Assembly (NCBI GenBank): GCA_016794585.1
Contig: JAEUJM010000032.1
Span: 124,001 to 188,000, forward strand
Reading direction: 5' to 3'
DNA length: 64,000 nucleotides
Source of the DNA: Acidimicrobiales bacterium
Lineage (GTDB): Bacteria; Actinomycetota; Acidimicrobiia; Acidimicrobiales; DATDAH01
A program made the position numbers and the translations under genes. The notes below the pieces were generated by a model, which was not told where the DNA came from, searched no databases, and saw nothing but the letters and a program-made list of their open reading frames with translations. This document shows positions 42,717 through 53,768 of the stretch, in pieces (position 1 is the stretch's first letter; every line of letters begins with the position of its first letter).

Positions 42717-43394
42717 ATGGAGACAGGCGACGACGCGAACGAGCGGGACCTGCGGGCGGCGCGTCATGCGGCGCTCGGCGATCCTGTCCGCCTCGCCATC
42801 GTCGACGAGCTCGTGGTGTCGGACCGGGCGCCGGTCGAGCTGCGCCGCCGCCTCGGGATCGAGTCCAACCTCCTGGCCCACCACCTCGACGTGCTCGAGG
42901 GGGTCGGCCTGGTCGAACGCACCCGCTCGAGCGGCGACGGTCGCCGCCGCTACGTCCACCTCCGGCGTGGCGCGCTCCACGGGCTGACGCCCGGCCGTCC
43001 GGTGCCGGGCGGTTCCGCGCTGTTCGTGTGCACCGCCAACTCGGCCCGGTCGCCCCTGGCCGCGGCCCTCTGGCGCCACCGCACCGGTCGGCCCGCGGCG
43101 TCCGCGGGCACGCACCCGGCCGAGCGGATCCACCCGGGCGCGGTCGCGGCGGCTCGTCGTGCGGGCGTGGACCTCGCCGACGACGCCCCCTCGTCGATCG
43201 CGGACGCCGGCCGCCCGCCCGCCATCGTCGTCACCGTGTGCGACCAGGCGCACGAAGAGCTCGACCCCGACCCGTCGTGGCTCCACTGGTCGGTCCCCGA
43301 CCCCGTGCCCGCCGGTACCGCGGCCGCCTTCGACGCCGCCGTGACGGAGTTGGCCGAGCGCATCGACGCACTCGCCGCCGAGGACACCCCCTGA
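42717..43394 (+). CDS. ArsR-family HTH fused to low-molecular-weight phosphatase domain (second copy)
   Basis: A 225-residue relative of the gene at 712. Winged helix at ~15-90 (AALGDPVRLAIVDELV; NLLAHHLDVLEGVGLV), phosphatase domain from ~100 with CTANSARSP (Cys105, Arg111, C-x5-R) and acid loop LHWSVPDPVPAG. It is shorter than the 712 copy and lacks its C-terminal tail. The P-loop carries Pro instead of Gln, a change likely to affect activity. First gene of the arsenic operon. Confidence 0.87.
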   Translation: METGDDANERDLRAARHAALGDPVRLAIVDELVVSDRAPVELRRRLGIESNLLAHHLDVLEGVGLVERTRSSGDGRRRYVHLRRGALHGLTPGRPVPGGSALFVCTANSARSPLAAALWRHRTGRPAASAGTHPAERIHPGAVAAARRAGVDLADDAPSSIADAGRPPAIVVTVCDQAHEELDPDPSWLHWSVPDPVPAGTAAAFDAAVTELAERIDALAAEDTP

Positions 43395-43461
43395 TGGCCG
43401 TCCGAAACACCCTCCCCGCCGTGTGCCCCCAGGCCCCGGCCGTTACCTCGGCGCGAAGGCC

Positions 43462-44283
43462 GTGAGCGTTCACGGTGCAGGGGCCGACGACGTGCGGGAC
43501 GGGGAGGTGCGGGACGGGGAGGTGCGGGCCGAGGTCCCGACCGACGAGGAGCTCGCCCACGAGGTCGAGTCGGGCACGGGCGCCCTGCGTCTCGACCTCA
43601 CCCGCCGCCTCGTCGCCGAGGGCCTCGGCACCGGCCTGCTGGTCATGGCCGTGGTCGGCTCGGGCATCGCCGCCAGCCGCCTCTCGGCCGGCGACGTCGG
43701 GCTCCAGCTGCTCGAGAACGCGGCCGCCACGGCCGGCGCGTTGATCGGCCTGATCCTCATGTTCGGGGCGGTGTCGGGTGCCCACTTCAACCCGGTGGTC
43801 ACCATCCTCGACCGCGCCCTCGGGACCACCACGACGAGGGACACCGGCCTCTACGTCGTGGCCCAGGTGATCGGCGGCTGCCTCGGGGCGATGGTGGCCA
43901 ATGTCATGTTCGAACTGCCTGCGGTCGAGGTGTCGACCCACGACCGGTCGTCGGCGGCCTTGTGGCTGTCCGAGTTGGTGGCCACGGTCACCCTCCTGCT
44001 CCTCATCCAGGGGTGCGTGCGCACCGGACGGGCCGCGGTCGTCCCCGTCGCGGTGGGGGCGTGGATCGGCGGGGCCTACTTCTTCACCTCGTCCACCAGC
44101 TTCGCCAACCCGGCGGTCACCGTGGCGCGCACATTGAGCGACACCTTCGCCGGCATCGCCCCGTCCTCGGCGCCGATGTTCATCCTCGTGCAGCTCGCCG
44201 CCGTGGCCGTGGCCTACCCCCTCGTCCGCCTCTTCTATCCCCACCCTCACGCTCACCCGCACACCGACGCCGAAGCGAACTGA
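43462..44283 (+). CDS. AqpS-like MIP channel of arsenic operon
   Basis: A 273-residue aquaglyceroporin-type channel with six helices and two half-helices carrying NPV (SGAHFNPVVT, Asn110) and NPA (SFANPAVTV, Asn216). Following NPA the usual selectivity-filter Arg is Val, as in the arsenic-specific AqpS of Sinorhizobium as I recall. This opens the pore to uncharged arsenite. Between an ArsR fusion and arsenate reductase, it should be an As(III) exit path. The acidic, repetitive N-terminal ~35 residues are extra. The GTG start is uncertain. Confidence 0.82.
   Translation: MSVHGAGADDVRDGEVRDGEVRAEVPTDEELAHEVESGTGALRLDLTRRLVAEGLGTGLLVMAVVGSGIAASRLSAGDVGLQLLENAAATAGALIGLILMFGAVSGAHFNPVVTILDRALGTTTTRDTGLYVVAQVIGGCLGAMVANVMFELPAVEVSTHDRSSAALWLSELVATVTLLLLIQGCVRTGRAAVVPVAVGAWIGGAYFFTSSTSFANPAVTVARTLSDTFAGIAPSSAPMFILVQLAAVAVAYPLVRLFYPHPHAHPHTDAEAN
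43492..43528 (+). repeat. 15-bp in-frame tandem repeat in the channel gene
   Basis: GTGCGGGACGGGGAG occurs at 43492-43506 and 43507-43521, with a partial third copy. It encodes VRDGE repeats in the N-terminal tail. Confidence 0.8.
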
Positions 44284-44295
44284 ACGGAGCTTCCC

Positions 44296-44949
44296 GTGGC
44301 CGACCTGACCCTCACCGACCTCCCCCTCGACCAGCAGGTGCTTGTGCGCCAGGTCGTCAGCCGCCTCGCCCCCGCCTACGAGGGCACCCTCGGCGCAGAG
44401 ACCGTCGAGCGGTTCGTGGTCGACTCGCTCGAGCAGCTCCTGCCCAAGGCCACGGTGGCCACCCACCTGCCCGTCCTGGCCGAGAAGTTCGCCAAGGACC
44501 GGCTCCGGGCCCTGCTGCGCCTCGAGGAGTCGGCGGGCGATGCCATCCCCGGCGTGCTCTTCCTCTGCGTCCACAACGCCGGCCGGTCCCAGATGGCGGC
44601 GGGTTGGCTGCGCCACCTGGCCGGCGACCGGATGGACGTCTGGTCCGGCGGCTCCGAGCCGACGTCCACCATCAACCCCGCTGCGGTCGAGGCCATGGCC
44701 GAGGTGGGCATCGACATCGCCCAGGAGTTCCCCAAGCCGTGGACCGACGAGATCGTGCGGGCCGCGGACGTGGTGATCACCATGGGCTGCGGCGACGCCT
44801 GCCCGCTCTACCCCGGAAAGCGCTACGAGGACTGGGTCCTGGAGGATCCGGCGGCCATGGACGTCGACAGCGTGCGGGTGGTGCGCGACCAGATCGAGGC
44901 CAAGGTGCGGGCGCTCATGACGTCCGTCGGCGTCGACCCCGTCACCTAG
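44296..44949 (+). CDS. arsC: Arsenate reductase (low-molecular-weight phosphatase type) with N-terminal helical domain
   Basis: A 217-residue protein. An N-terminal three-helix domain (~10-80) is followed by the reductase domain: VLFLCVHNAGRSQMAAG (Cys91, Arg97), DVWSGGSEPTSTINP, TDEIVRAADVVITMGCGDACPLYP and WVLEDPAAMD with the acid Asp. It reduces arsenate to arsenite, probably with mycothiol/mycoredoxin or thioredoxin. Two further cysteines (GCGDAC) could supply the intramolecular disulfide path. Third gene of the ars operon, 12 bp after the channel gene. Convergent with the ArsR gene. Confidence 0.9.
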   Translation: MADLTLTDLPLDQQVLVRQVVSRLAPAYEGTLGAETVERFVVDSLEQLLPKATVATHLPVLAEKFAKDRLRALLRLEESAGDAIPGVLFLCVHNAGRSQMAAGWLRHLAGDRMDVWSGGSEPTSTINPAAVEAMAEVGIDIAQEFPKPWTDEIVRAADVVITMGCGDACPLYPGKRYEDWVLEDPAAMDVDSVRVVRDQIEAKVRALMTSVGVDPVT

Positions 44950-44968
44950 CTGGCAGCGACGCCCTGGA

Positions 44969-45316
44969 TCAGCGGGAGAGGGCGGCGCTGGGGCCGAGGG
45001 CGCCGCGGATGGCGGCGAGGCGCTCGGGCACGACCCGGTACCAGGCCCACTTGCCGCGCTTCTCGCGGGTGAGCAGGCCGGCGTCGACCAGCAGCGACAG
45101 GTGGTGCGACACGGTGGGCTGTGAGCGGCCCACGGGCTCGACGAGGTCGCAGGCGCAGGCCTCGCCCGTCTCGGCGGCGGCCACCATCGAGAGCAGGCGG
45201 AGGCGGGCGGGGTCGGCCAGCACCTTGAACACGGCGGCGAGCTCGGCGGCGTCGTCCTCGCCCAGCACGCCCTCGGTGACCGGGGCGCAGCACAGGTCGT
45301 CGGCATGCACGTCCAT
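44969..45316 (-). CDS. arsR: ArsR-family arsenite-responsive repressor
   Basis: A 115-residue winged-helix repressor. ELAAVFKVLADPARLRLLSMV and SQPTVSHHLSLLVDAGLLTREKRGKW are the helix-turn-helix region. Cys9-Cys10 and Cys54, Cys56 (EACACD) match the ArsR1-type As(III) site of Corynebacterium glutamicum. Divergent from arsI, with perfect operator dyads in the 104-bp gap. As(III) should release it. Confidence 0.92.
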   Translation of the reverse strand: MDVHADDLCCAPVTEGVLGEDDAAELAAVFKVLADPARLRLLSMVAAAETGEACACDLVEPVGRSQPTVSHHLSLLVDAGLLTREKRGKWAWYRVVPERLAAIRGALGPSAALSR

Positions 45317-45352
45317 GGTGGGCTCCCTTCCTGGAGGAATCTCGCGAACGTA

Positions 45353-45403
45353 TTGACATTCGTCGATGTGTTGCTAAGGTACTCACATCGACGAACTTCG
45401 ATG
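45353..45403. promoter_or_regulatory. arsI promoter and ArsR operators
   Basis: -35 TTGACA (45353-45358), a 16-bp spacer and -10 TAAGGT (45375-45380). A perfect 12-bp dyad TTCGTCGATGTG (45359-45370) / CACATCGACGAA (45384-45395) brackets the -10. A second dyad CATCGA / TCGATG (45386-45403) overlaps it. Binding would block transcription in both directions. Confidence 0.65.
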
Positions 45404-45420
45404 AGTCTACCGGAGGTCCC

Positions 45421-45912
45421 ATGTCCCGCCTGCAACTCGCCCTCAACGTCACCGACCTCGAGGCCGCGGTCGCCTTCTACGGCAAGCTCTTCGCCATCGA
45501 GCCGGCCAAGCGCAAGCCCGGCTACGCCAACTTCGAGGTGGCCGACCCGCCCCTGAAGCTCGTGCTCTTCGAGGCCGCCGAGGGGGGCACCCTCAACCAC
45601 CTGGGGGTCGAGACCGAGACCGCCGCCGAGGTCACCGCCGCCGAGGCCCGCCTCAGCGAGACCGGCCTCGAGACCACGGGCGTCGACGACACGACCTGTT
45701 GCTTCGCCACCAAGGTGGAGACCTGGGTGACCGACCCCGACGGCGCCCGCTGGGAGTGGTACGTGAAGACCGGCGACGCCGACACCATCGGCGGCGGGGC
45801 CGACCCCGCGACCGGCGAGGCCGTGTGCTGCGCCCCCGTCGCCGAGTCGCCCCCCGAGCCCGTGACCCTCGGGGCGTCTGCGGCGACGAACGGCGGGTCC
45901 GGCTGCTGCTGA
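45421..45912 (+). CDS. arsI: ArsI/CadI-family C-As lyase
   Basis: A 163-residue VOC-type non-heme iron dioxygenase that cleaves the carbon-arsenic bond of trivalent organoarsenicals. The vicinal Cys93-Cys94 (TTCCFATK) is the As-binding pair. Candidate metal ligands are Gln5, His60 and Glu112. A C-terminal cysteine-rich tail (AVCCAPV; GSGCC) is typical. It follows the arsR-controlled promoter with a GGAGGTCCC ribosome site. Confidence 0.9.
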   Translation: MSRLQLALNVTDLEAAVAFYGKLFAIEPAKRKPGYANFEVADPPLKLVLFEAAEGGTLNHLGVETETAAEVTAAEARLSETGLETTGVDDTTCCFATKVETWVTDPDGARWEWYVKTGDADTIGGGADPATGEAVCCAPVAESPPEPVTLGASAATNGGSGCC

Positions 45913-47925: not shown

Positions 47926-48108
47926 ATGAACCTCGGAGGCCCCGAGATCGTCATCCTGCTCGCCGTCGTGCTGCTGCTCTTCGGCAGCTCGAAGGTGCCC
48001 CAACTCGCTCGCAGCCTGGGCAGCGCCAAGCGCGAGTTCGAGACCGCCCAGAAAGACGGGAGCGACGCGACCCCCACGGAGATCCCCGAGGCCGCGCCGG
48101 CCGCGTAG
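47926..48108 (+). CDS. tatA: Twin-arginine translocase subunit TatA/E
   Basis: A 60-residue TatA-type protein with the canonical N-terminal helix LGGPEIVILLAVVLLLFGSSKVPQLARSLG and an amphipathic helix, followed by a short acidic/proline tail. It forms the pore of the Tat pathway with TatBC, which are not in the window. GGGAGAACGCC precedes ATG. An isolated tatA copy is common in actinobacteria. Confidence 0.9.
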   Translation: MNLGGPEIVILLAVVLLLFGSSKVPQLARSLGSAKREFETAQKDGSDATPTEIPEAAPAA

Positions 48109-48128: not shown

Positions 48129-48170
48129 GAATCACGATTCTTGACACACGAATCCTAGAACGTCTTTAAT
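48129..48170 (+). promoter_or_regulatory. Leaderless promoter and GAATC repeats of the dab operon
   Basis: TTGACA (48141-48146), an 18-bp spacer and TTTAAT (48165-48170) end 6 nt before ATG 48177. Three GAATC half-sites flank the -35: GAATC-AC-GATTC (48129-48140) and GAATC (48150-48154). These could bind a CO2/bicarbonate-responsive regulator, but none is encoded nearby. Confidence 0.55.
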
Positions 48171-48176
48171 GGCGGC

Positions 48177-49814
48177 ATGCCCACCGCCTCCATCCTGCTC
48201 GTCCTCCTCGGCGCCCCCCTCGCCGCTGCGGTCGTCGTGCCCTCGCTCGCCGCCCTTCCGGTCGGTCGCCATCGCCGGGCCGGGGCGAGCCTCACCGCGG
48301 CGGCGGCCGCCGCCGCCATGAGCGCCGTGGCAGCGGCCGGGGCGACGGCGGTCGTCGTGGCCGGCGGCGAACCGACGCTGACCTGGGGCGGCACCACCGT
48401 CGTCCGCTACGACGCGCTGGCAGCGCTGGTGGTCCCGGTGGTGGCCCTGGTGTCCACCACCGTCCTGCTCTACGCCCGCCGCAACCTCGAGGGGGACGAG
48501 CGCGCCCCACGCTTCGCGGCCGCCGCCGGCGCCCTCGTCGGGGGGACCCTCGTGGTCGTCACGGCGGCCACGCTGGCCGTGCTGGTCGCCGGTTGGCTCC
48601 TGGCCTCGGTGGCGACCGTCGCCCTGTGCGCCTACCGGGGGACCTCCGTGGCGCGGGCGGCGGCGGGCCGGGCGGCCCGGGCCTTCGCCGTCGGCGACCT
48701 CGCCCTCATCGGTGCGCTGGCCACGACCGTCGCCCTCGTCGGCAACCCCGATCTGTCGGACCTGGGCGCCGCGGCGGCCGAGCTCCAGGGGTGGACCCTG
48801 CTGGGCCTCGGCCCGGTCACCGTGACCGCCGCGGCGGCGGTGGTCGGGCTCCTCGTGGTGGCGGCACTGGCCCGGGGCGGCCAGCTCCCCTTGCCCCGGT
48901 GGCTGCCGGGCACGGTCGCCGCACCCACGCCGGTGTCCGCCCTGCTCCACGCCGGCGCGGTGAACGCCGGGGCCATCGTCCTCATCCGCACGAGCCCGAT
49001 CGCCGCGGAGGCGCCGGCGACCATGGTGGCCCTGGCGGCCTGCACCCTGGCCACCATCGCGGTGGTCCTCCCGGCGGTGCGCTCCCACGCCGACGTCAAG
49101 GGGCAGCTGGCCGAGGCCACCTCGGCGCAGATGGCCTTCATGTTGCTGGCCTGCGCGGTCGGGGCCCCGGTGGTGGCCCTCACCCACCTGGCCGGCCACT
49201 CGCTCTACAAGTCGGCCCGGTTCCTCGGCGCCGGCGACACCATCCGCCACGAGGTCTCCCGCCGCCGGTGGCTGCCCGCTCCGACCTCCCTCCACCTCGG
49301 GGCGGCTGTGGCCATCGGCGGCGCGGTGGCGGTGGCGTGGGCGGCGGTCAGCGGATGGGCGGGCGCGCCCGCCCCCGAGCGCTGGTTCGTCGGCGCCGCC
49401 CTGGTCGCACTGGCAGCACAGGCCACCGGCGCCCTCGCCGGTCGGGGGTGGGCCGTCTCCCCGTCCCTGCTGCTGGTCGCGGTCGGCGCGATCGCCATGG
49501 CCGTCGGTGTGGCCCTCGCCGCCGAGCGCCTGGTGGGCCCGGCCCTGTTCCACGCCGACGCCTTCGTCGATCCCCGGCTCGCCCTGCTGGCCCTCGGCGG
49601 CCTCGCCGCCGGGACCGCCCTGCTGCGGCGCACCCCCGCAGGGGCGGCCTGGCTGGCCGGCGTCACGCCGGTGGCAGCGACCGCTCCGACCCAGGTCGCG
49701 ACCTCGCTCGTGTCGGCGTCGACGTCCGTCGGCCCCCGACCGGCGCAGCGAGCCCGGCCCCGTCCTGCCGCCGGCGAACCGGCGTCGGCACCGGCCCTCG
49801 AGGGGGCACGGTGA
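48177..49814 (+). CDS. dabB: DabB-type proton-conducting membrane subunit of inorganic-carbon transporter
   Basis: A 545-residue protein of the NuoL/MrpA family with ~13-14 helices. Functional residues lie in LLHAGAVNAGAIVLIR and THLAGHSLYKSARFLGAGD, the lysine/histidine proton-channel signatures. DabB couples ion flow to DabA. Its C-terminal ~60 residues are Pro/Ala/Arg-rich. It is the first gene of the operon and its stop overlaps the dabA start (GTGA). Confidence 0.88.
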   Translation: MPTASILLVLLGAPLAAAVVVPSLAALPVGRHRRAGASLTAAAAAAAMSAVAAAGATAVVVAGGEPTLTWGGTTVVRYDALAALVVPVVALVSTTVLLYARRNLEGDERAPRFAAAAGALVGGTLVVVTAATLAVLVAGWLLASVATVALCAYRGTSVARAAAGRAARAFAVGDLALIGALATTVALVGNPDLSDLGAAAAELQGWTLLGLGPVTVTAAAAVVGLLVVAALARGGQLPLPRWLPGTVAAPTPVSALLHAGAVNAGAIVLIRTSPIAAEAPATMVALAACTLATIAVVLPAVRSHADVKGQLAEATSAQMAFMLLACAVGAPVVALTHLAGHSLYKSARFLGAGDTIRHEVSRRRWLPAPTSLHLGAAVAIGGAVAVAWAAVSGWAGAPAPERWFVGAALVALAAQATGALAGRGWAVSPSLLLVAVGAIAMAVGVALAAERLVGPALFHADAFVDPRLALLALGGLAAGTALLRRTPAGAAWLAGVTPVAATAPTQVATSLVSASTSVGPRPAQRARPRPAAGEPASAPALEGAR

Positions 49815-52171
49815 GCGTCGAGGAGACGGTGACGGGGATCGCCGTGACGACCGACGACGCGACCAGTCAGCTGGACACGACGGTCGAGGCGCGGGCCCGG
49901 CTACGGGTTGAGATCGCCGAGTCGTCCCGGATCGTGGCGCCGGTCTGGCCCCTCGAGCGCTTCGTGGCGGTCAACCCGCTCCTCGGCCTGCTCGAGGAGG
50001 GCTTCGACGGCGCCGTCTCGGACGCTCGTCGGTGGCTCGGCGCCCGGGGCTACCCCGGCGTCCCGGCGCCCTCGCAACGCGTGGGCACGGTGCTGGCGAC
50101 CGCTGCCCCTGATGTCGCCGAGGCCGTGGCCGGGCTCGTGGCCCGTTGGTGCGCCCTGCTGGTCGATCCCCACGGCACGATGGCCGGGGCGGCGAGCCGC
50201 TACGAGGCGTGGCGCCAGGTGGCCCGCCACGACCGGTCGCTCCGGCGGCTCGTCGGCGGCGACCTGGCGGCCTCCGTGGCCGCCCTGCCCGACCGGGCCG
50301 ACGACGCCGTGCTCACCGCCCTCGATCGACTGGGCATCGAGCCCGAGGGGCGGACCCACGAGCTCAGGGCGCAGCTGGCCCGCCTGCCCGGGTGGGCGGG
50401 CTACGCCCGGTGGTGCGACGAGTGGTCCGGTCCGCAGGACCCCACCCCCCGCCTCCACCTCGTCGAGCTGCTCGCCATCGCCCTCAGCACCGATGCGATG
50501 GTCGCCGGAGCGGCCGGCGTCGACGCCTCCACCGGGGCGGCGGGCATCGAGCCCGCCACCACCGATGACGTCGACGAGCCGGCGTGCGCGGCGGCGCGAG
50601 AAGGGCTCGCTGCCGCCGAGGGCGCCTACCGGGACCACCTCCTCGCGGCCCTCGCCGGTCCCGGGCGACACGGACCCGTCACGCCGGCGGCCCAGGTGGT
50701 GTGCTGCATCGACGTGCGCAGCGAGCTGCTGCGCCGCCATCTCGAGGCGGTCGGCCCCTACGACACCCTCGGCTTCGCCGGCTTCTTCGCCACCCCGGTG
50801 CGCATCCGCCCGCTGGGCTCGGCGGAGTCGTACCCATCGGCGCCGGTGCTGCTCGACCCCGAGGTCGAGGTCAGGGAGCGACCCGATCCCGACCACCCCG
50901 AGAGCGCCGCGGGCGTGGTGCGGTCCCGGGCCCGGCGCGCCGCCGGCGTGGCTGCGGTGGAGGACCTCGGCCACGACGCGGTGGCCATGTACGCACTGGC
51001 CGAGACCGCGGGGTGGGTGTTCGGCCCGGCGGCGCTGGCCCGGACGGTGGCGCCCTCGCCTCGTCGGGGACGCGACGCCGCTGCGGTGACCGTGGTGGAT
51101 CCCGCTGAGGTGCTCGGCCTGGACGAGCGGGCGACCGTGGCCGAGACCGCGCTGCGCACCATGGGCCTCACGGAAGGCTTCGCCCCCGTCGTCCTGCTCT
51201 GTGGGCACGGGGCCACGACGGCGGCCAACGCCCACGCCGCCTCGCTCGACTGCGGGGCCTGCGGCGGCAACCACGGGGGACCGAACGCCCGCACCCTGGC
51301 CGCCATCTTGAACGACGAAGAGGTCCGCGCCGAACTGCGGGCGCGGGGCGTCACCATCGGCGAGGGCACGTGGTTCGGCGCCGCCGAGCACGACACCACG
51401 ACCGACGAGGTGGCGCTGCTGGACGCCCACCGCGCCCCGGCCTCCCACCGAGACGCGGTGGACCGCCTCGCCGCCGACCTGGCCATCGCCGGCGAGCGGG
51501 CGGCGGCCGAGCGGATGACCCGACTCCCCGGCGGGCTCGGGCGGGACCGCAAGGCCGGGACGGCCACGGCCAAGCGGGCGGCACGGCGGGCCCGTCGCCG
51601 CGCCGGCGACTGGGCGCAGACCCGGCCCGAGTGGGGGTTGGCCCGCAACGCCGCCTTCGTGGTCGGTCCCCGGGATCTGACACGGGGCGTGGACCTCGCC
51701 GGCCGCACCTTCCTCCACTCCTACGACGCCGCCGCCGACACCGCCGGCGTGGCCCTCGAGACCATCCTCACCGCGCCGATGGTGGTGGCCCACTGGATCA
51801 ACGCCCAGTACTACTTCTCCACCGTCGACCCCGAGGTCTTCGGGGCGGGTGACAAGGCCCTCCACAACCCCGTGGCGGGCGTCGGCGTCCTCTCCGGCGC
51901 CGACGGCGACCTGCAGGTCGGCCTGCCCTGGCAGTCCGTGGCCGGCCCCGACGGCCCGTACCACGAGCCGTTGCGCCTGCTCACCGTGGTCGAGGCGCCC
52001 CTCGAGCGCATCGACGCGGTCATCGCCCGCAACCCGATCCTCCAGCACCTCTTCGGGGGCCGGTGGGTGCACCTCGTCGCCCGGTCCGACCCCGACCAGC
52101 CGTGGACGCAATGGGCGGACGCGGGGGTCTGGCACGCCGCCCACGTGAGCCGAACGGAGTGCTTCACATGA
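49811..52171 (+). CDS. dabA: DabA, zinc-dependent CO2-to-bicarbonate subunit of DAB carbon accumulator
   Basis: A 786-residue DUF2309/UPF0753 protein. It is proposed to hydrate CO2 vectorially inside the cell using energy from DabB, raising bicarbonate. The four zinc-site positions identified in Halothiobacillus DabA are conserved: Cys299 and Asp301 (VVCCIDVRSE), His466 (CGHGATT) and Cys481 (DCGACGG), with the same 15-residue spacing between the last two. Length is typical. The GTG start overlaps dabB by 4 bp and the stop overlaps the next ATG. Confidence 0.93.
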   Translation: MSVEETVTGIAVTTDDATSQLDTTVEARARLRVEIAESSRIVAPVWPLERFVAVNPLLGLLEEGFDGAVSDARRWLGARGYPGVPAPSQRVGTVLATAAPDVAEAVAGLVARWCALLVDPHGTMAGAASRYEAWRQVARHDRSLRRLVGGDLAASVAALPDRADDAVLTALDRLGIEPEGRTHELRAQLARLPGWAGYARWCDEWSGPQDPTPRLHLVELLAIALSTDAMVAGAAGVDASTGAAGIEPATTDDVDEPACAAAREGLAAAEGAYRDHLLAALAGPGRHGPVTPAAQVVCCIDVRSELLRRHLEAVGPYDTLGFAGFFATPVRIRPLGSAESYPSAPVLLDPEVEVRERPDPDHPESAAGVVRSRARRAAGVAAVEDLGHDAVAMYALAETAGWVFGPAALARTVAPSPRRGRDAAAVTVVDPAEVLGLDERATVAETALRTMGLTEGFAPVVLLCGHGATTAANAHAASLDCGACGGNHGGPNARTLAAILNDEEVRAELRARGVTIGEGTWFGAAEHDTTTDEVALLDAHRAPASHRDAVDRLAADLAIAGERAAAERMTRLPGGLGRDRKAGTATAKRAARRARRRAGDWAQTRPEWGLARNAAFVVGPRDLTRGVDLAGRTFLHSYDAAADTAGVALETILTAPMVVAHWINAQYYFSTVDPEVFGAGDKALHNPVAGVGVLSGADGDLQVGLPWQSVAGPDGPYHEPLRLLTVVEAPLERIDAVIARNPILQHLFGGRWVHLVARSDPDQPWTQWADAGVWHAAHVSRTECFT

Positions 52172-52941
52172 CCACCTCGAACACCGTGGCCCCGCTCCCG
52201 TGGCCCGCCCTCACCTCCACCGGGCCCTCGACCACCACGGTCGGCCTGGTCGCTGACGCGTCGGCCCTGGGCCCCGCCCGTCACGCCGCTGATCGACTCG
52301 GCCTCGGCCTGACGGTGTTCGACCCGTCCAGGGACGACGGCGGCGACCTGGCCGCCCTCCTGGGCTTCGCGTCCGGGTGCGATGCGGTGAGCGTCGATCC
52401 GGCCCTCGTCGGGCCCGACCGCCTACCGCCGGGCCACCTCGACGCCCTCCGTGACGCCGGCCACCGCGTGTGGCCCGACCCCGTGGCCGTTCGCCTCAGC
52501 CAGGACCGCGCCTTCGCTCGGAGCGCGCTCGGGCTCGCCGGGTTCCCGGTGACGGCCGGGACCGGTGACGGGGCCGGGGCCGGACGGGCCCGCCTCTCGG
52601 TGCTGGTGGCCCGCCGGCCCGCCGGTTGGTGGCGAGCCAGGGTCACCGCACCGGCCGGCGACGGCCCGGTGCTGCGCACCACGACCCTTGCGGAGGCGCG
52701 GGCCCTGGCCGTGTCGGTGGCCGACGGACTGGGAGCGGTGGGCGCGCTCGCGGTCGACCTCGCCCTCACCGCGTCCTCGGGCCTGGCGGTCGCCGGCGTG
52801 ACCGCCGGCCCACGGCCTCCCGTCGCTCGTGGGGTCGATGCCGCGATGGACCACCTGACCGCGCTCCTGGACCGTCCCTTCACCGGGGGCACCGGCGCAG
52901 GGCGGGCCCAGGAGGCCGCTGCGGTGGTCGAGCGCCCGTGA
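52168..52941 (+). CDS. Degenerate PurK-like protein (N5-CAIR synthetase relative) in dab operon
   Basis: A 257-residue protein aligning with PurK in three blocks: an N-terminal preATP-grasp region (VGLVADASALGPARHAADRLG to WPDPVAVRLSQDRAFARSALGLAGFPV), a short middle segment ARLSVLVARRPAGWW, and a C-terminal block VADGLGAVGALAVDLALTASSGLAV. The ATP-grasp core (~50-60 residues, with the ATP-lysine and Gly-rich loop) is missing, and the ELAPRPHNSGH metal motif is replaced by VTAGPRPPVARG. Catalysis is not expected. PurK uses bicarbonate, so a carbon-related binding or regulatory role is conceivable. Confidence 0.68.
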   Translation: MTTSNTVAPLPWPALTSTGPSTTTVGLVADASALGPARHAADRLGLGLTVFDPSRDDGGDLAALLGFASGCDAVSVDPALVGPDRLPPGHLDALRDAGHRVWPDPVAVRLSQDRAFARSALGLAGFPVTAGTGDGAGAGRARLSVLVARRPAGWWRARVTAPAGDGPVLRTTTLAEARALAVSVADGLGAVGALAVDLALTASSGLAVAGVTAGPRPPVARGVDAAMDHLTALLDRPFTGGTGAGRAQEAAAVVERP

Positions 52942-53768
52942 GCGGCTCCTCCTCGCTCCTCGACGGCAAGCGCCTGCTCGTCACCGGGGTGGCGACCCCG
53001 GACAGCATCGCCACAGCCACGGCACGCGCGTGCCTCGAGCAGGGCGCCCGCATCGTGCTGACCGCCTTCCCCCGCGATATCGAGGCGGCCCGCGCCGTGG
53101 CCGCCGACCTCGACCCGACCGTCCCGGTGCTGTCCCTCGACCTCACAGACCGGGGCGAGGCCGACGCGGTAGCGACCCAGGCAGCCGAGCAACTCGGCGG
53201 CCTCGACGGGGCGCTGCACGCCGTCGCCTTCGCCCCTCGCACCGCACTGCACGGACCGTTCACCGAGGCCGACCCCGCCGACGTCGAGCTCGCCTTCCGC
53301 ACCAGCGCGTGGACCCTCGCCGAGCTCGCTCGCGTGCTGGCCGTCCAAGCGCCGCCCTCGGGGGCGTCGCTGGTGGCCCTGGACTTCGACGCCGACGACC
53401 GGGCGTGGCCCCTCTACAACTGGATGGGCGTGTGCAAGGCGGCCCTGCGTTCGACCGCCCGCTATCTGGCCCGGGACCTCGGCCCGGCCGGCATCCGGGT
53501 GAACCTGGTCGCCGCCGGCCCCCTGCGCACCCGGGCGGGCAGCGCCATCCCCGGCTTCGAACGCCTCCTCGAGGCCTGGGACACCACCAGCGCGCTCCCG
53601 TGGGACGCCTCCGACCCGGCGCCCGTGGCCGACACCGCCTGCTTCTTGTTCTCCGACCTCGCCCGGGCAATCACCGCCGAGGTCCTCCACGTCGACGGCG
53701 GGTATCACGCAATGGCCACCCGTCTTCGCGACGCCGATCCTCCGTCGGAGGTCGTCCTCTCGACGTGA
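52938..53768 (+). CDS. fabI: Enoyl-ACP reductase, InhA/FabI type
   Basis: A 276-residue short-chain dehydrogenase of the FabI class, catalysing the NADH-dependent last step of fatty-acid elongation. LLDGKRLLVTGVATPDSIA is the unusual FabI nucleotide motif. Tyr160 and Lys167 (YNWMGVCK) form the Y-x6-K catalytic pair, and IRVNLVAAGPLRTRAGSAI is the substrate loop, all close to mycobacterial InhA. Fourth gene of the operon; GTG overlaps the preceding stop. Its presence here links carbon uptake and lipid synthesis, at least genetically. Confidence 0.92.
   Translation: MSGSSSLLDGKRLLVTGVATPDSIATATARACLEQGARIVLTAFPRDIEAARAVAADLDPTVPVLSLDLTDRGEADAVATQAAEQLGGLDGALHAVAFAPRTALHGPFTEADPADVELAFRTSAWTLAELARVLAVQAPPSGASLVALDFDADDRAWPLYNWMGVCKAALRSTARYLARDLGPAGIRVNLVAAGPLRTRAGSAIPGFERLLEAWDTTSALPWDASDPAPVADTACFLFSDLARAITAEVLHVDGGYHAMATRLRDADPPSEVVLST

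Follow-up and report, generated by a model that had tools for sequence, protein, structure and literature searches.

Work on DAB (DAC) complexes has so far mostly treated them as aids to RuBisCO or, in Staphylococcus, as substitutes for carbonic anhydrase (CA). In DAB2 of Halothiobacillus neapolitanus, which supports RuBisCO-based fixation in an autotroph, mutation has shown that the zinc ligands, an Asp-Arg dyad and a finger Glu are needed; the purified complex binds CO2, and vectorial hydration driven by the proton-motive force has been proposed (PMC13144422). MpsAB of Staphylococcus aureus is a DAB homologue in a heterotroph, where it was proposed to supply bicarbonate for acetyl-CoA carboxylase (ACC), pyruvate carboxylase and purine carboxylation (Fan et al. 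2019, PMC6689103). MpsAB tends to exclude CA and has been argued to be a Na+/HCO3- system (PMC6689103, PMC8552792). No fabI or purK has been described in its operon.

The window analyzed here, a stretch of 64,000 nucleotides from a member of the Acidimicrobiales, carries a dab locus with both kinds of neighbor. Its features are as follows:

48141-48170, + strand: candidate promoter read by eye (TTGACA at 48141-48146, an 18-bp spacer, TTTAAT at 48165-48170)
48177-49814, + strand: dabB, a NuoL/Mrp-type proton-conducting subunit of 545 aa (PF00361, E 9e-24; matches DabB2, 9rd0_B)
49811-52171, + strand: dabA, a β-carbonic-anhydrase-like DAB subunit of 786 aa (PF10070, 729 bits; 9rd0_A, E 8e-112)
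52168-52941, + strand: apparent PurK-derived pseudoenzyme of 257 aa, with the pre-ATP-grasp domain kept and the ATP-grasp core and C-terminal domain deleted or eroded
52938-53768, + strand: fabI paralogue of 276 aa, assigned to a clade that we call FabI-D (NF005908 match; InhA PDB matches, E 2e-52)

The four ORFs thus span 48177-53768, and each of the three junctions is an overlap of exactly 4 bp. The ORF coordinates and all three overlaps agree with the first-pass annotation, which had also called the genes "fused"; as a statement about gene fusion this was wrong, as they only overlap. In the loci examined, a simple gene caller placed 4-bp overlaps at 190 of 1033 junctions between same-strand neighbors (18%) and at 43 of 87 dabB/dabA junctions, so the overlaps point to one operon yet are ordinary in themselves. 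A consensus scan of the locus made no promoter or terminator call, having skipped the TTTAAT hexamer because it lacks an A at position 2. The dabB start codon lies about 7 bp past this hexamer, making a leaderless dabB transcript possible. By inspection, Shine-Dalgarno-like stretches occur just 5' of dabA (GAGGGGG) and of the PurK-like gene (CGGAG). None is evident in the stretch upstream of the fabI GTG start at 52938, which makes translational coupling of fabI through the PurK-like ORF plausible.

Most of the length of DabA aligns to DabA2 of H. neapolitanus (PDB 9rd0). In this alignment the zinc ligands C299, H466 and C481 correspond to DabA2 C351, H524 and C539, the dyad D301-R303 to D353-R355, and the finger Glu E384 to E444. 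The "four zinc-site residues" previously credited to DabA are therefore present in substance, as three zinc ligands plus the Asp. DabB, matched to DabB2 by a constant offset of -2, carries all six proton-path Ser/His/Lys residues (S254, H258, K308, H337, H341 and K345, for S256, H260, K310, H339, H343 and K347). With a PF10070 DabA adjoining a PF00361 DabB, and with the Cys/His/Cys ligands, dyad, finger Glu and NuoL-like proton path of the two-subunit DAB2 all represented, DabB and DabA appear by sequence to form a genuine DAB (DAC) complex. We infer that it is active and converts CO2 to HCO3- using the proton-motive force, as proposed for DAB2. Its setting is unlike that of DAB2, since it shares its operon with a FabI paralogue and a PurK remnant, in a genome that lacks RuBisCO. 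In three other loci (L069, L163, L182) DabB and DabA lie in a single ORF, an arrangement reported for Acidimicrobium ferrooxidans (PMC6689103).

The host genome (5.49 Mb, 98% complete) contains no match to the RuBisCO family PF00016, and thus offers no basis for a RuBisCO-based autotrophic CO2-concentrating mechanism; its DAB probably serves heterotrophic bicarbonate supply. Among 148 genomes of the order, β-CA (PF00484) occurs in 6 of the 29 genomes with DabA and in 70 of the 119 others (Fisher p 3e-4, kinship ignored). DAB therefore tends to replace CA in the order, a mutual exclusion also described in Firmicutes, there between MpsAB and CA (PMC8552792). The host also carries a short β-CA with C-D-R and H-C motifs (L200) and a housekeeping FabI, so neither its DAB nor its FabI-D need be essential. 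The idea that a heterotroph uses DAB to provide ACC or purine carboxylation with bicarbonate, put forward in the first-pass annotation, is consistent with the missing RuBisCO; having been proposed for MpsAB in 2019 (PMC6689103), this part of it was already known.

The third gene fared differently. Its product reaches at best 39.1 bits against the PurK profile (TIGR01161 / PRK06019), for which the cut-off is 327, and "PurK-like" holds as distant homology only. Aligned with intact PurK (N5-CAIR synthetase; PDB 3ax6), it retains the first α/β (pre-ATP-grasp) domain along with pieces from the second half of the ATP-grasp domain. Most of the ATP-binding core and the C-terminal domain are gone, and so are the GxGQL loop, the RPHNSGH motif and two glutamates, those of FDHE and VNE; the ATP-grasp core and the NE...RPHNSGH motif that mark a PurK are deleted or replaced. 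An AlphaFold model (mean pLDDT 71) predicts that the N-terminal domain folds, and in the PDB it is most similar to PurK structures (3ax6, for example), at about 17% identity. In a PurK tree the protein sits on a branch of 5.97, against a median of 0.71, and the tree did not single out a nearest relative; a grouping with the PurK of its own genome was not rejected (AU p 0.30). The ORF has a strong codon-position bias (GC3 0.89), and its GC2, 0.64 where true purK has 0.49, suggests that constraint on the protein has been relaxed. In view of the score and the lost catalytic residues we rejected it as a working PurK. A canonical PurK overlaps PurE by 4 bp elsewhere in the genome (contig C27, L084); a further PurK-family match (G000:C26) resembles PurT by eye. 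We conclude that the PurK-like protein is, as far as its sequence tells, a highly diverged pseudoenzyme and probably vestigial. Its proposed service as a bicarbonate-enzyme relative or product binder is unsupported, given the lost catalytic apparatus and the real PurK-PurE pair.

A search of 396 other genomes of the order yielded no orthologue of the PurK-like protein, so the exact four-gene order, when sought in relatives, looks private to the window genome. Uniqueness of the order was the refuting condition set in the first-pass annotation, and on that condition the exact four-gene unit falls. To place the locus more widely, we used 110 dab loci that formed 76 clusters at 80% DabA identity. 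Neighbors were counted by six-frame HMM searches, a simple gene caller having missed dabA in L070, L175 and L177. This set was drawn by similarity to the window DabA, so percentages from it describe relatives of the window locus and not all DAB. In 5 of the 76 loci a PurK is found no more than 6 kb from dabA (L003, L020, L047, L076 and L080, with L076 and L080 from Gammaproteobacteria), and in L003, L020, L047 and L080 it is the sole PurK in the genome; PurE is also near dabA in L186. A related genome (L003) has a five-gene version consisting of dabB, dabA, a full-length purK (397 bits), purE and fabI. This is likely the ancestral layout, and the window gene is probably the remnant of a PurK once present in the operon in the same way. 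On one low-coverage metagenome contig (L047:32-3411), DabA and PurK share an open frame of 965 codons, an apparent fusion, with purE next after a 4-bp overlap. The earlier pairing of PurK with DAB is thus borne out in some relatives, where purK and purE stand next to, or apparently fused with, dabA, but not by the window's own degenerate protein. Among 396 genomes drawn at random from the phylum, 23 had DabA and none of these had PurK near it, which indicates that the linkage is sporadic.

Other neighbors recur, but having been noticed post hoc they are weaker evidence: a TsaC/Sua5 family (8 clusters), BioD-like (4), LarB (4), PII-like (33) and a winged-helix regulator (41), together with IlvD (9) and Icd (5), the last two named by eye. 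TsaC uses bicarbonate, and BioD and LarB use CO2. A pyruvate carboxylase lies two genes from dabB in one locus (L183:10047-16778). An Icd-type gene (cluster c8) adjoins PurK in L013, L194 and L195.

FabI-D linkage, in contrast to the sporadic PurK linkage, is frequent in some lineages. The product of the fourth gene contains a FabI-type domain (PF13561, 219 bits) with a Y160-x6-K167 pair and an InhA-type Phe (F150), as expected of an SDR-type enoyl-ACP reductase (FabI/InhA; InhA, PDB 7kli). Against NF005908 it scores about 294.7-294.9 bits, just under the 299-bit equivalog cut-off, while the housekeeping FabI of the host (contig C47; 49% identical to it) scores 415.8. The original "fabI" label was thus right as to family and needs two corrections: the protein falls just below the family cut-off, and by its sequence it would be a FabI-family enoyl reductase that is a paralogue and not the housekeeping copy.

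In a tree, 19 dab-linked FabI proteins and two unlinked ones (from G057 and G130, which lack DabA) formed one clade, FabI-D (support 100/99), apart from 29 housekeeping FabI. Differences from housekeeping FabI across the clade are A97 (19 of 19), N161, C166, F236, R243 and I245; C166 adjoins the catalytic Lys, and Y160, K167 and the InhA-type Phe are retained. FabI matches in the order sample separate by score: a large class scores high, and a small one scores low (about 220-312 bits). The low class lies within about 3 kb of dabA in seven genomes (G000, G032, G038, G082, G085, G109 and G139); with partial FabI near dabA in G021 (L188) and G102 (L185), the total is 9 of the 29 DabA genomes. The high, housekeeping class is never close to dabA in this sample, its nearest member being about 50 kb away. 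A second FabI accompanies FabI-D in G000, G038, G085 and G109. In G032, G082 and G139, FabI-D is the only match in a search for the FabI family, and it would thus probably suffice as the enoyl reductase of the cell.

In the wider set, 20 of the 76 dereplicated loci have a FabI no more than 6 kb from dabA. By our estimate, with about 3500 genes per genome, chance would put a single-copy gene in such an interval in well under 1 of 76. The first-pass association of DAB with FabI therefore holds, in that the dab-fabI link recurs across Actinomycetota, although the exact order with the PurK-like gene does not.

The explanation that we favor, and to which we give an even chance of being correct, is that DAB makes bicarbonate for biosynthetic carboxylases in a heterotroph and is co-expressed with FabI-D, the PurK-like gene being a remnant. 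The DabB proton channel and the DabA zinc hydrase would use the proton-motive force to convert entering CO2 to cytoplasmic bicarbonate, which would feed ACC, pyruvate carboxylase, PurK and the like instead of RuBisCO. FabI-D, a clade that travels with DAB in Actinomycetota, would be expressed along with it, so that bicarbonate supply (through ACC to malonyl-CoA) and the last step of each elongation cycle would rise and fall together; in this way DAB would be wired to fatty-acid elongation. The PurK remnant may have been kept open as a translational bridge, with fabI coupled through its ORF. Several points weigh against this reading: FabI itself uses no bicarbonate, the operon contains no acetyl-CoA carboxylase gene, the host has the short β-CA and the housekeeping FabI noted above, PurK linkage is sporadic, and the PurK tree does not trace the remnant to an operon PurK.

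The main rival holds that FabI-D and DAB came together a single time, either on a mobile island or in an ancestral actinobacterium, and that they have since been inherited or transferred together without functional coupling; we consider this possible, if on the unlikely side. A near-identical dab-Icd-IlvD-FabI-BioD island occurs in different Pseudonocardiaceae genera (Pseudonocardia, Amycolatopsis, Saccharopolyspora, Prauserella and Saccharomonospora; L024, L025, L026, L032, L036, L037 and L074), which suggests transfer as a block; these islands reflect either recent horizontal transfer or shared contamination. Distances among DabA and among FabI-D proteins are correlated (Mantel r 0.79, with 0 of 5000 permutations as high), a result that fits co-transfer as well as co-function. 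Against simple co-inheritance, FabI is on the strand of dabA in all 22 linked loci measured, yet its position varies: it follows dabA in 12 and precedes it in 10, with differing intervening genes. If function played no part, repeated rearrangement should have disrupted both strand and proximity, even though fabI on either side of dabA could stem from one ancestral adjacency followed by rearrangement.

A bolder extension of the favored explanation gives DAB dedicated biosynthetic partners. Bicarbonate made by DabA would pass to enzymes encoded next to it or fused to it (PurK in L047; PurE/PurK in L003, L020, L076 and L080; pyruvate carboxylase in L183), and FabI-D would be a DAB-specific enoyl reductase coupling bicarbonate to elongation. 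We regard this as doubtful. If true, such a DAB would be the metabolic counterpart of the branch that serves RuBisCO.

Two further alternatives concern single genes, and both appear improbable. FabI-D could be an altered, inhibitor-tolerant backup enoyl reductase whose proximity to DAB is incidental. All 19 dab-linked FabI-D proteins have Ala where most housekeeping FabI have Gly (A97 in the window), a position that we take to correspond to Gly93 of E. coli FabI. Substitutions of Gly93 alter inhibitor binding, and the second FabI in four of the genomes would fit a backup; a backup is hard to square with the three genomes in which FabI-D is the sole FabI-family match, and no antibiotic-related family recurs beside it among the neighbors identified. 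Equally unpromising is a working PurK-like accessory subunit of DAB, sensing bicarbonate or a nucleotide: its open, codon-biased frame overlapping both neighbors, the predicted fold of its N-terminal domain and the single DabA-PurK frame in L047 (a possible precedent for physical association) are outweighed by the lack of orthologues in the order, the vanished metal/ATP residues and RPHNSGH motif, the extreme branch length, the raised GC2 and the scarcity of PurK, which is missing from the vicinity of most dab loci.

A literature search, thin on subscription journals, found nothing relevant on DAB with an enoyl reductase or PurK. In the literature searched there was accordingly no earlier report of a dab-linked FabI-D clade, of DAB-PurE/PurK loci or of a DabA-PurK open frame; DAB in heterotrophs is already known. 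The analysis sets a second FabI clade apart from the housekeeping enzyme. Along with the apparent DabA-PurK fusion and the neighbors that use HCO3- or CO2 (PurK/PurE, pyruvate carboxylase, TsaC, BioD and LarB), it supplies named, testable genes for asking which carboxylations are limiting for heterotrophs at ambient CO2 and whether the bicarbonate made by DAB is channeled.

Directly upstream of the dab promoter region, the window carries a small TatA/E-type gene (47926-48108; PF02416, 53.5 bits). About 2 kb upstream of dab lies an arsenic-type cluster (42717-45912), whose families were named by eye without HMM: an ArsR-ArsC-like fused protein, a MIP channel, a second ArsC-like protein, ArsR and a CadI/ArsI-like protein. 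The channel, ArsR and CadI/ArsI-like families, again by eye, also occur 3' of dabB-dabA-fabI in a locus from Ilumatobacteraceae (L058).
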